Assembly (NCBI RefSeq): GCF_009937975.1
Contig: NZ_AP018441.1
Location: 930,001-994,000, forward strand
Length of the DNA: 64,000 nucleotides
Origin: Undibacterium sp. YM2
GTDB lineage: Bacteria; Pseudomonadota; Gammaproteobacteria; Burkholderiales; Burkholderiaceae_D
Direction of reading: 5' to 3'
Under the pieces are notes generated by a model, which was given only the letters and a program-made list of their open reading frames with translations, searched no databases and was not told the origin of the DNA. Both the position numbers and the translations under genes were made by a program. This document shows, piece after piece, positions 30,556 to 33,609 of the stretch. Each line of letters opens with the position of its first letter. The first letter of the stretch is position 1.

Positions 30556-31521
30556 ATGGCAGTTTTTACACCGGTAAGTCTGGAAGACCTTGGCCTCTGG
30601 ATGCAGCAATTCCCTTTGGGTAAGGCCCTAAGCATCAAAGGTATCGCCTCAGGCATAGAAAACAGTAATTTCTTTATCAATACAGAGGCAGGTGAGTTTG
30701 TATTGACGATATTTGAAAACCTGAGTTTTGAGCAGCTGCCTTTCTATCTGAAACTCATGCGTCACCTGGCGGATCATGGCGTACTGGTGCCCGCACCTAT
30801 TGCCAATGATCAGGGTGAGTTAGTAGTTGCTTTGCATGGCAAGCCCGCGGCTATTGTCAGCAAGCTTGAAGGCAGTTCACAAATGGAGCCGCAGGCAGTG
30901 CATTGTGCGGAAGTCGGCGCGATGCTGGCACGCATGCATATTGCAGGTAAGGATTTCAGCATACAGCAACCTAATTTGCGTTCGCTGGACTGGTGGCATG
31001 AGACCACACCCAAGGTTTTGCCTTTCCTGACAGATGAGTTGCAGCACTTGTTGCGTGCCGAAGTTCATTTCCAGGACGCTTTCGACAGCACGCCAATTTA
31101 CCGTGCCTTGCCACGGGGCCCCGTGCATGCAGACTTGTTCCGCAATAATGTGATGTTCGACGGCGAGCGCCTGACCGGTTTCTTTGATTTTTATTTCGCC
31201 GGTTGTGATACCTGGATTTTTGATGTGGCCGTAACCGTCAATGACTGGTGTATTGACGTCGCCACCGGCGTGCTGGATGAGGCGCGCGTGCTGGCCTTGC
31301 TGAACGCTTACCATGCAGTGCGCCCTTTCACCAAAGAAGAGGGCATTGCCTGGCAACCCATGTTGCGTGCAGCGGCTTTGCGTTTCTGGTTGTCGCGTCT
31401 GTATGATTTTTACCAGCCCAGGGATGCAGAGATGCTGACCCCGCATGATCCTACGCATTTTGAACGCATTTTGCGCCTGCGTGAATCGGGTCGTGTGCCA
31501 GCATTGCCTGTCAATACATGA
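30556..31521 (+). CDS. thrB: Homoserine kinase (ThrB, aminoglycoside-phosphotransferase-like fold)
   Basis: The 321-residue kinase phosphorylates homoserine in threonine synthesis. It belongs to the APH-like type found in Pseudomonas and Burkholderiales rather than the GHMP type of E. coli. It contains [20 protein letters not shown], the catalytic loop [18 protein letters not shown] and the [16 protein letters not shown] segment. The stop overlaps the next gene in an ATGA arrangement. Confidence 0.95.
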
Positions 31522-32297
31522 AAACAGTAGATGCAAGGTCAGGCTGGACCTGGGTGGCCCGGGGTTTTGCGCTATTCCGTCAACGGCCCGCAGAGTTGAT
31601 CAGCTTGTTTTTCTTATGGATGATGCTGACTCAATTGCTGAAGTTCATTCCTGTCGCAGGGCAATTCCTGAGCCTGTTTTTGTTCCCTGTATTTTCAGTC
31701 GGGCTTATGCAAGCCTGTTTGCTGGTAGAAAATGAGCAGAGAATAACGCCCAGCTTGCTTTTCACTGGTTTTAAATCTCAGCACAGGATGGCTTTGCTGG
31801 GGTCAGGTGTCTTTCGTATATTGGCCATATTTGTAACGGGCTTACTTTCTGATGCACTGGCTGACGGAGATATCGAGGCCTTCGTAAAAATTATGCAAAC
31901 CGCCGGACCTATGGATGCGAATGCGCTGCAGCAAGCTTTTCCTTTCAAGGGCATTTTCTTTTCGGTCCTGTTTTATATTCCATTTGCGATGGCATTTTGG
32001 TACAGCGTTCCGTTGATGGTATGGCAGCGAATGTCGCTGATGAAATCCATGTTCTACAGTTTCTTTGCCGTACTCCATTCCTGGAAAGCCTTCATTGTCT
32101 ATGTCCTTGGCTTGTATGGTGTGATGATACTGGTCAGCCCGTTTGCACTCATTTTTGCAGGAATAGATATTTATGTTGCAGCACTTATGCTTGCGGCATT
32201 GTCATTTCTTATTTTTGTTATCGCTTATTGCTCTTCTTATCCGACTTACACAGATGTTTTTGGCAAGCCGGATGCAGGAGATCAGCCTGCTGCCTGA
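31518..32297 (+). CDS. Multi-pass membrane protein (BPSS1780-like family)
   Basis: This 259-residue inner-membrane protein has about six predicted helices. The N-terminal [20 protein letters not shown], then [14 protein letters not shown] and [19 protein letters not shown], match a family often annotated BPSS1780 in Burkholderiales. Its role is unknown. It shares four bases with thrB, so it is co-transcribed with it. Its 3' end overlaps the 3' end of the OsmC gene by 16 bases on the other strand. Confidence 0.82.
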
Positions 32298-32737
32298 TGT
32301 TCTGAAGGCAGATCCAGGTCTTCGATGATCTCAAAGCTATGTGTCATTTCTGCTGTCTTTTCCAGCATGATTGATGCAGAGCAGTATTTTTCATGTGACA
32401 GCTTGATAGCGCGTTCAACCAGGTTGGCTTTCAACTGACGGCCACGCACGACGAAGTGAAAATTGATCTTGGTGAATACCTTGGGTTCGGTTTCCGCACG
32501 TTCGGCTGTCAGCTTGACGTCACAGCCACGGATATCTTGCTTGCCCTTGCGCAAAATCAGCACCACATCATAAGCCGAGCAGCCACCTGTGCCCAGCAAT
32601 ACCATTTCCATAGGGCGGGGCGCAAGATTACGGCCGCCGCCATCAGGTGCGCCATCCATTAATACAGCATGACCGGAACCGGTTTCTGCCAGAAAAGACA
32701 TGCCGGACGACCCTGTCCAGCGTACTGTTGCTTCCAT
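32282..32737 (-). CDS. OsmC family protein
   Basis: The 151-residue protein has the OsmC/Ohr fold. Two cysteines that usually form the peroxidatic pair are in LLGTGGCSAYDVVLIL and HEKYCSASIMLEK. It is closer to the YhfA/OsmC-like branch than to organic-hydroperoxide-specific Ohr, judging by APRPMEMVLLGTGGC. It would reduce peroxides with a dithiol donor. It is convergent with the thrB group, and the candidate small RNA lies divergently upstream. Confidence 0.88.
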   Translation of the reverse strand: MEATVRWTGSSGMSFLAETGSGHAVLMDGAPDGGGRNLAPRPMEMVLLGTGGCSAYDVVLILRKGKQDIRGCDVKLTAERAETEPKVFTKINFHFVVRGRQLKANLVERAIKLSHEKYCSASIMLEKTAEMTHSFEIIEDLDLPSEHQAAG

Positions 32738-32833: not shown

Positions 32834-32862
32834 TTGCACTGCACAATTTCTTGTCCTATTAT
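32834..32862 (+). promoter_or_regulatory. Promoter of the candidate small RNA
   Basis: TTGCAC (32834-32839) and TATTAT (32857-32862) are exactly 17 bases apart. The rplM promoter has the same -35 hexamer and spacing. Transcription would start near 32869, just before the first hairpin of the candidate small RNA. Confidence 0.6.
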
Positions 32863-32868
32863 TGACTC

Positions 32869-32970
32869 ATCGGTTAGTTAATGGCAAGTCTGTCAACTAA
32901 CCTCGCAATTGTCTCCTCCACCTACTCCTTTGGTGGATTCAACCCGAAGCCAGTCTTCGGGTTTTTTTTT
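32869..32970 (+). ncRNA. Candidate small RNA with three hairpins and a CUCCUCC motif
   Basis: About 100 bases hold three stem-loops in a row: GGTTAGTT/AACTAACC (32872-32902), TCCACC/GGTGGA (32917-32937) and AACCCGAAG/CTTCGGGTT (32941-32963). Nine T residues follow at 32962-32970, so the last is a Rho-independent terminator. Between stems one and two is CTCCTCC (32913-32919), which can pair with ribosome binding sites. A 17-base-spaced promoter sits in front and no frame is open. It may be a trans-acting RNA or a terminated leader upstream of rplM. I do not recognise a named family. Confidence 0.65.
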
Positions 32971-33032
32971 GCCCTATTTCTGCAAAATTTCCACACAGTG
33001 CCTGCAAAGACTGCACAAAAATTAAACAGTTC

Positions 33033-33061
33033 TTGCACTAAGTCTTTGAAAATACTATAAT
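33033..33061 (+). promoter_or_regulatory. rplM-rpsI promoter
   Basis: TTGCAC (33033-33038) and a perfect TATAAT (33056-33061) are 17 bases apart. The transcript would have a leader of about 113 bases containing CTCCCT/AGGGAG (around 33068-33088). That hairpin is a possible site for the autogenous control known for L13 in other bacteria. Confidence 0.75.
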
Positions 33062-33180: not shown

Positions 33181-33609
33181 ATGAAAACCTTTTCCGCTAA
33201 GGGCCATGAGGTTCAGCGCGACTGGTTCGTGATTGACGCGACAGATAAAGTACTCGGACGTGTTGCCAGCGAAGTGGCACTCCGTTTACGCGGCAAACAT
33301 AAACCAGAATTTACACCACACGTAGACACAGGCGATTTTATCGTTGTTGTTAACGCAGGCAAACTGCGCGTGACTGGTACTAAAGCTCTGAACAAAACAT
33401 ACTACCGTCACACTGGTTATCCAGGCGGTATCTATGAAACAAATTTCCAGAAAATGCAAGAGCGTTTTCCAGGTCGTGCACTCGAGAAAGCTGTTAAAGG
33501 CATGTTGCCTAAAGGCCCACTCGGCTATGCAATGATCAAGAAGCTGAAAGTCTATGCAGATGCAACACATCCGCACGCAGCTCAGCAACCACAAGTACTC
33601 GACATCTAA
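33181..33609 (+). CDS. rplM: 50S ribosomal protein L13
   Basis: The 142-residue protein has the full family pattern: [60 protein letters not shown] and [17 protein letters not shown]. It binds 23S rRNA early in 50S assembly. AGGATT precedes the ATG, which follows a leader of about 113 bases. It is the first gene of the standard rplM-rpsI operon. Confidence 0.99.

Follow-up and report, generated by a model that had tools for sequence, protein, structure and literature searches.

Small RNAs of the Rfam family RF02278 have been published as double-hairpin RNAs, namely ncS27 and its siblings in Burkholderia cenocepacia, which expresses four of them (ncS03, ncS05, ncS27 and ncS62). They fold into two hairpins and carry CU-rich stretches with complementarity to ribosome binding sites, and the label 'toxic' refers to the harm they do to E. 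coli when cloned. ncS27 is 92 nt long, with processing to a short form possible, and growth is slower on its overexpression and faster on its silencing; in glucose medium, qPCR gave increases of 8.0-fold for ncS03, 6.9-fold for ncS05 and 4.3-fold for ncS27 (PMC4603805, PMC5688073). The regulation of accumulation of these B. cenocepacia sRNAs was called unknown by the authors of PMC5688073. NcS27, according to a review, affects genes of phenylalanine/tyrosine catabolism and carbohydrate transport (PMC10987360). It is probably the bdhR1 of later text. Four RF02278 RNAs of Herbaspirillum are in print, predicted as short RNAs (PMC7011215). The S17 RNA of Bordetella pertussis blocks ribosome binding sites and represses its targets; RNase E cuts its 190 nt long form to a short form, and the gene adjoins coq7 and has a TTGCAT -35 element with a 17-bp spacer (PMC11722255). 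The Neisseria siblings NmsR and NgncR_162-163 (RF02877) have two anti-Shine-Dalgarno stretches and repress metabolic enzymes, but are tied to RelA, not PhaR (PMC5362039).

PhaR is a repressor of phasin genes that comes off the DNA once PHB is formed (PMC4873508, PMC9049629). In Bradyrhizobium, footprints and an alignment of promoters yielded the consensus TGCRNYGCASMA (PMC6201568), while the Herbaspirillum protein (PhbF) protects a region with TG[N]TGC[N]3GCAA (PMC3206438). Ralstonia sites were predicted with the palindrome YTKNTGCRNYGCANMAR, up to three mismatches being allowed, and were confirmed by gel shift (PMC12849132). An sRNA under negative control of PhaR (AniA) and with a tie to PHB is known from Sinorhizobium meliloti (MmgR, alpha-r8), but it is alphaproteobacterial, belongs to another RNA family and is reported to lower phasins rather than uptake genes (PMC8401924). 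The S17 promoter is postulated by its authors to be repressed in Bvg- mode by an unnamed factor (PMC11722255), for which PhaR is a testable candidate.

The locus described here lies within a 64,000-nt stretch of the genome of Undibacterium sp. YM2 (hereafter the window; contig NZ_AP018441.1, positions 930,001 to 994,000, forward strand). The initial annotation had placed a candidate sRNA between osmC and rplM, and the OsmC and Ribosomal_L13 domains of the flanking genes agree with that location. The features of the locus are as follows.

32282..32737, - strand: osmC-like gene, divergent neighbour (Pfam PF02566, OsmC; NCBIfam NF008009)
32834..32862, + strand: sRNA promoter, -35 TTGCAC (32834-32839), 17-base spacer, -10 TATTAT (32857-32862), from the sequence and the like arrangement of relatives
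32835..32846, + strand: candidate PhaR operator TGCACTGCACAA, overlapping the -35 element; no mismatch to the Bradyrhizobium-derived TGCRNYGCASMA, conserved in 28 of 42 loci
32869..32970, + strand: predicted sRNA transcript of about 102 nt, start near 32869, from promoter and terminator positions (fold z = -5.0, 100 dinucleotide shuffles)
32872..32902, + strand: leader 5' hairpin (fold prediction)
32910..32970, + strand: RF02278 core (Betaproteobacteria toxic sRNA), 64.6 bits in a covariance search, cut-off 50
32913..32919, + strand: first anti-Shine-Dalgarno stretch, CTCCTCC, from sequence and fold; invariant in 35 aligned copies
32917..32937, + strand: second hairpin, its loop TACTCCTTT (32923-32931) being the second CU-rich stretch (fold, family model, covariation analysis)
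32941..32970, + strand: intrinsic terminator, stem 32941-32963 (9 pairs) and T-run to 32970 (fold; covarying stem)
33033..33061, + strand: separate rplM promoter, TTGCAC-17-TATAAT, read from the sequence
33181..33609, + strand: rplM (ribosomal protein L13), downstream neighbour (Pfam PF00572, Ribosomal_L13)

A covariance search had been proposed along with the candidate, and it places the RNA well above the RF02278 cut-off. The layout is that of the family, with two hairpins, the second of which is the intrinsic terminator, and a CU-rich stretch before and inside the first. The window RNA is a member of this curated and published family, and so the RNA itself is not new. Family, hairpins, CU-rich stretches and terminator are common to ncS27, and the 5' region of S17 is conserved as in the window RNA. 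Membership of the NmsR/NmsRb family (RF02877; 28.4, cut-off 52) and of the anti-hemB family (RF02837; 30.8, cut-off 49.5) was rejected. A small protein encoded by a 59-aa ORF at 32881-33060 was set aside; the ORF runs through the terminator.

The promoter with exact 17-base spacing that had been claimed is present and conserved in relatives. Its -35 element agrees with the sigma-70 consensus at three of six positions and was therefore omitted by a promoter scan that needed four of six; conservation in relatives supports the call. For the 137-nt region the fold energy is -36.5 kcal/mol (z = -4.55), a value that none of 200 shuffles reached, and both the three hairpins of the initial annotation (32872-32902, 32917-32937 and 32941-32963) and its textbook terminator, nine pairs plus a T-run, were recovered. 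The CTCCTCC that it described as exposed is so in part: in the predicted fold CUCC is single-stranded, but the final UCC is paired and opens the second hairpin. The heptamer as such is no rarity, with 4.3 occurrences expected in the window and 2 found. By analogy with published ncS27 and S17, the 5' leader hairpin is probably removed by processing. Altogether, there is good support for a terminated RNA of about 100 nt that acts in trans and bears anti-ribosome-site stretches, and the initial annotation is confirmed as an observation and partly supported as an interpretation.

The RNA precedes rplM in 43 of 80 named loci of this gene (44 of 81 sources including the window), one of the 43 (L086) being a weak match with E = 0.0007. 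Among named rplM genes, the closest match comes from Undibacterium hunanense, at 100% identity. On the other side of the RNA lies osmC in 42 RNA-bearing loci, with none seen in one (L097). Among the 37 loci without the RNA, osmC is beside rplM in 21 (183-327 bp between), and no osmC was seen upstream in 16, for some of which the fetched piece ends there; osmC-rplM pairs without the RNA include those of Duganella, Janthinobacterium, Rugamonas and Herminiimonas. In the relative Burkholderia aenigmatica (L091), a transcript of 92 nt is predicted, as long as ncS27 in print, and its leader agrees with CGA/AUG, the cut site reported for ncS27 (PMC7377471). On this length and cut-site fit, and with the osmC/rplM position also agreeing, the window RNA is very probably the ortholog of ncS27.

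Three further RF02278 copies are found in a row in the genome of the window (G000:C1:20162-21397), with a 189-aa open frame separating the last two. Burkholderiaceae have up to 19 RF02278 matches per genome, and in a sample of 300 genomes across the order, 188 have a match, 114 of them over the curated cut-off. Many copies away from rplM (L006, L009-L017, L021, L023, L029 and similar) start at or near TGTCTCC, with no leader, and have a common upstream module like ATATTCAC...GATAT...AAATTGG, perhaps an activator site. An upstream motif common to three homologues was reported by Sass in 2017 (PMC5688073).

The compensatory changes in relatives that the initial annotation called for exist, mostly in the terminator stem. 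In an alignment of 35 distinct locus copies, the paired fraction of cells is 95.5% (85.7% in shuffles) and 62 cells carry double changes, against 25.5 +/- 4.1 in shuffles. Six pairs show a double change (4.7 in shuffles), five of them in the terminator, while further pair types were not above shuffles in these copies (12 vs 13.7). Hairpin 1 of the family, equivalent to 32917-32937, is nearly invariant across copies, as expected if its sequence is itself the active part. Transcripts could be folded at the 40 of 42 loci where a -10 element was placeable; the first four bases of CTCCTCC are free in 35 of the 40 folds, and the 5' leaders, folded singly, do better than shuffles (z < -1.5) in 23 of the 40. 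In most Polynucleobacter copies (L092, L093, L095, L100, L111-L113), the loop of hairpin 1 is like AAACATA, so that CTCCTCC is kept and the second CU-rich stretch lost. Undibacterium nitidum (L036:2231-2287) also keeps CTCCTCC, with a largely different hairpin 1 stem (GTCACTCCAAGTGAC), and its PhaR site is gone (4 mismatches).

A feature absent from the initial annotation is the candidate PhaR-type operator over the -35 element. Besides matching the Bradyrhizobium consensus, the window site has a TGC-N3-GCA core in common with the Herbaspirillum motif; it has four mismatches to the Ralstonia 17-mer, outside the limit of three used by those authors. On its own the 12-mer has no significance in the window, where 2.5 matches are expected and 2 occur, and therefore only comparison can decide. 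The second perfect match, at 31922-31933 inside the open frame 31518-32297, is probably due to chance. Upstream sequences of the locus copies have TTGCRNYGCASMA in common at the -35 element.

The comparison began from the 42 loci where the RNA was found by motif (41 named plus the window), two finds made only with the model (L045 and L086) being left out. The best TGCRNYGCASMA match within 130 nt upstream has no mismatch in 28 loci, one in 6, two in 5, three in 1 and four in 2; mononucleotide shuffles give 0 mismatches in 0.08% and 1 in 1.2%. A set of 96 distinct Burkholderiaceae copies partly overlaps these loci. It omits a duplicate (L184), repeat copies in overlapping loci (L003, L004, L141, L142) and the window's own copy. 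Part of the overlap between sets is the pairs L024/L078 and L177/L056, which lie on contigs of equal length and look like the same records. Beside rplM, 20 of 25 copies have a perfect site, 4 have one mismatch and 1 has two, and the reversed consensus gives none with 0 or 1 mismatch. Away from rplM, 8 of 71 copies have a perfect site and 25 have one mismatch (reversed consensus, 0 and 1), and in many of these the site is found near the -10 region instead. For the other three copies in the window's genome, the mismatches number 0, 1 and 2.

In seven Burkholderia, Paraburkholderia and Cupriavidus genomes, 30 of 36 RF02278 matches were used, the rplM copies being the same loci as in the 42-locus set; 12 have a perfect site and 6 a site with one mismatch (reversed consensus, 0 and 1). 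In the three Burkholderia sensu stricto genomes, the lineage of ncS27, the site is missing at the rplM copies (2-3 mismatches), which differ in this from the window copy with its perfect 12-mer at -35. Perfect or one-off sites stand before other RF02278 copies in the same three genomes.

Outside Burkholderiaceae, the site could be compared between genomes with and without PhaR, in both cases among the strongest matches listed rather than a random draw. In PhaR-positive genomes (25 loci returned and 6 fetched), 20 of 31 copies have a perfect site and 4 have one mismatch, 24 of 31 in all. In PhaR-negative genomes, two of which are 70% and 85% complete (G403 and G233), none of 37 copies has a site with 0 or 1 mismatch, and the reversed consensus gives 0 and 1. 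Counted by family among these strongest matches, a site with at most one mismatch is found in 12 of 13 PhaR-positive and 0 of 9 PhaR-negative families (Fisher p = 2e-5), three families (f4, f9 and f43) having members in both sets. Five of the 24 PhaR-positive sites (L238, L239, L242, L248 and L257) are over 100 nt upstream and perhaps have no effect on the promoter; 19 of 31 remain without them. Eight of the PhaR-negative copies have rplM within the same 1.1-kb stretch. The Ralstonia palindrome at up to three mismatches is found in 36 of the 42 loci, 23 of the 25 rplM-side copies and 37 of the 71 elsewhere, and, among the strongest matches listed, in 25 of 31 PhaR-positive and 4 of 37 PhaR-negative copies; its reversed control gives 2, 1, 7, 8 and 6, respectively.

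The window's genome has a single phaR gene. Of the three phasin genes in this genome, two are preceded by a pair of perfect sites with a spacing of 56 bp. Of 39 phasin gene matches, 30 from 15 genomes were used; the site is perfect in 21 of these and within one mismatch in 25, where the control gives 0 and 1. The genome contains the pattern TTGCNNYGCACAA 22 times and the pattern written backwards twice, but many of the 22 are inside open frames. Among 48 genomes of named loci (40 with a motif-found copy and 8 others), 45 have PhaR; of the three without a match, one lacks the site (L083), and two carry a perfect site (L089, and L103 from a 1.1 Mb genome). In 97 Burkholderiaceae genomes, the seven without RF02278 all lack PhaR. 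PhaR never occurs there in the absence of the RNA, and the reverse, RNA but no PhaR, is seen in four genomes, three of them 68-86% complete as assemblies. This co-occurrence is weak since the seven RNA-negative genomes are from two small-genome genera. The genome-level tie is also weak across the order, where 138 of 300 genomes have both, 50 the RNA only, 65 PhaR only and 47 neither. Judged from gene content and promoter sequence, presence of the RNA does not need PhaR, and it is the promoter operator that tracks PhaR.

What takes the place of the operator in PhaR-negative lineages is suggested by a second element, ATTAGANNAT, which is located in the promoter of RF02278 copies from these genomes (L259-L292, e.g., L263, L272 and L284). 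It is upstream of 29 of the 37 PhaR-negative copies among the strongest matches listed, but of one copy each in the other sets, of 31 and 96. Its sequence and distribution suggest a candidate operator of another regulator, or a lineage-specific promoter form.

These results point to the following explanation, which as a whole we regard as likely. The osmC-rplM RF02278 sRNA would be transcribed from the sigma-70 promoter, and PhaR, the PHB-sensing repressor, would hold this promoter off through the operator that overlaps its -35 region. When PHB granules form, PhaR would move from the DNA to the granule, and the sRNA would be released together with the phasins. A removable 5' hairpin would precede the active part, which would pair through UGUCUCC and the loop ACUCCUUU with the Shine-Dalgarno regions of uptake and catabolic mRNAs and block their translation. 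The outcome would be that a filling carbon store exerts negative feedback on nutrient import. What the comparisons establish is the family, the synteny, the structure, and an operator that is conserved and follows PhaR gene content; PhaR binding, processing and targets are proposed from there. As for the sign of control, we infer repression, which fits an operator over the -35 element; PhaR can also activate, as it does phaP3 in Ralstonia (PMC12849132). Start sites with GGAGGAGA followed by ATG were not clearly enriched in the window's own genome (8, against 4 for the backwards pattern). Three of the eight start long frames with matches to a TonB-dependent receptor plug, an allantoate amidohydrolase and an ABC permease of the polar amino-acid type, which are candidate targets only.

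The RNA may instead be a usual member of RF02278 that targets ribosome binding sites, with its conserved promoter element read by another regulator or representing merely an unusual -35 sequence. The Burkholderia sensu stricto rplM copies have lost the site, yet ncS27, of the same lineage, is still induced in glucose medium (PMC5688073), and this reading also draws on the two sites found without a PhaR match (L089 and L103) and on the four mismatches between the window site and the Ralstonia palindrome. It has difficulty, however, with the second half-site, GCASMA, which falls within the spacer, a part of the promoter on which sigma-70 makes no demands; PhaR-negative genomes often retain the TTGC of the -35 element with the second half absent, and phasin promoters carry the same element. 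We consider it unlikely, although it is the most plausible of the alternatives.

Still less probable is that the RNA mimics the anti-Shine-Dalgarno end of 16S rRNA and serves as a global translation brake or toxin, not as a regulator of chosen mRNAs. The CU-rich stretches would suit such a role, as would the reported E. coli toxicity and slower growth on overexpression (PMC4603805, PMC5688073), but the effects of NcS27 depend on carbon source (PMC10987360), and Bordetella S17 spares exponential E. coli growth and acts on a gene set (PMC11722255). A cis-acting leader or attenuator, in which termination versus read-through sets the level of the ribosomal protein, is suggested by the position of the RNA, on the same strand, 210 bp upstream of rplM and kept there in 43 of 80 named loci. 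The initial annotation had mentioned this alternative and noted that rplM has its own downstream promoter, which we also find. Together with the strong terminator ending 210 bp before rplM and the 21 of 80 named loci where osmC is next to rplM with no RNA between them, this promoter led us to reject the leader; the same RNA is also found far from rplM elsewhere (71 of 96 copies, and three in the window's genome), and such a role is now very hard to credit.

Control of the RNA by PhaR is the new part of this proposal, and was not found in print, whereas the RNA family is already published. A literature search, with the NcS27 paper of 2019 outside its scope, found no published link between PhaR and an RF02278 RNA, and the word PhaR is absent from the main texts of PMC5688073, PMC11722255, PMC7011215 and PMC7377471. 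The role of riboregulation in PHB synthesis by Cupriavidus necator is described as undeciphered in a review (PMC8401924). Control by PhaR at RF02278 promoters would connect the field of riboregulation with that of bioplastic storage, in bacteria employed for PHB production; the operator would give these RNAs a concrete, testable input, one that would fit their rise in glucose medium. On a wider scale, and with somewhat less assurance than for the window locus, we favour a PHB-sensing feedback circuit conserved across Betaproteobacteria, in which granule-titrated PhaR would control anti-Shine-Dalgarno sRNAs, often several per genome, that shut uptake at the onset of storage. Lineages without PhaR would have kept the RNA, some of them beside rplM, and swapped the operator for the ATTAGANNAT element, so that the input was rewired and the output stayed the same. 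PhaR-positive and PhaR-negative lineages would then represent a natural experiment in the rewiring of sRNA promoters.
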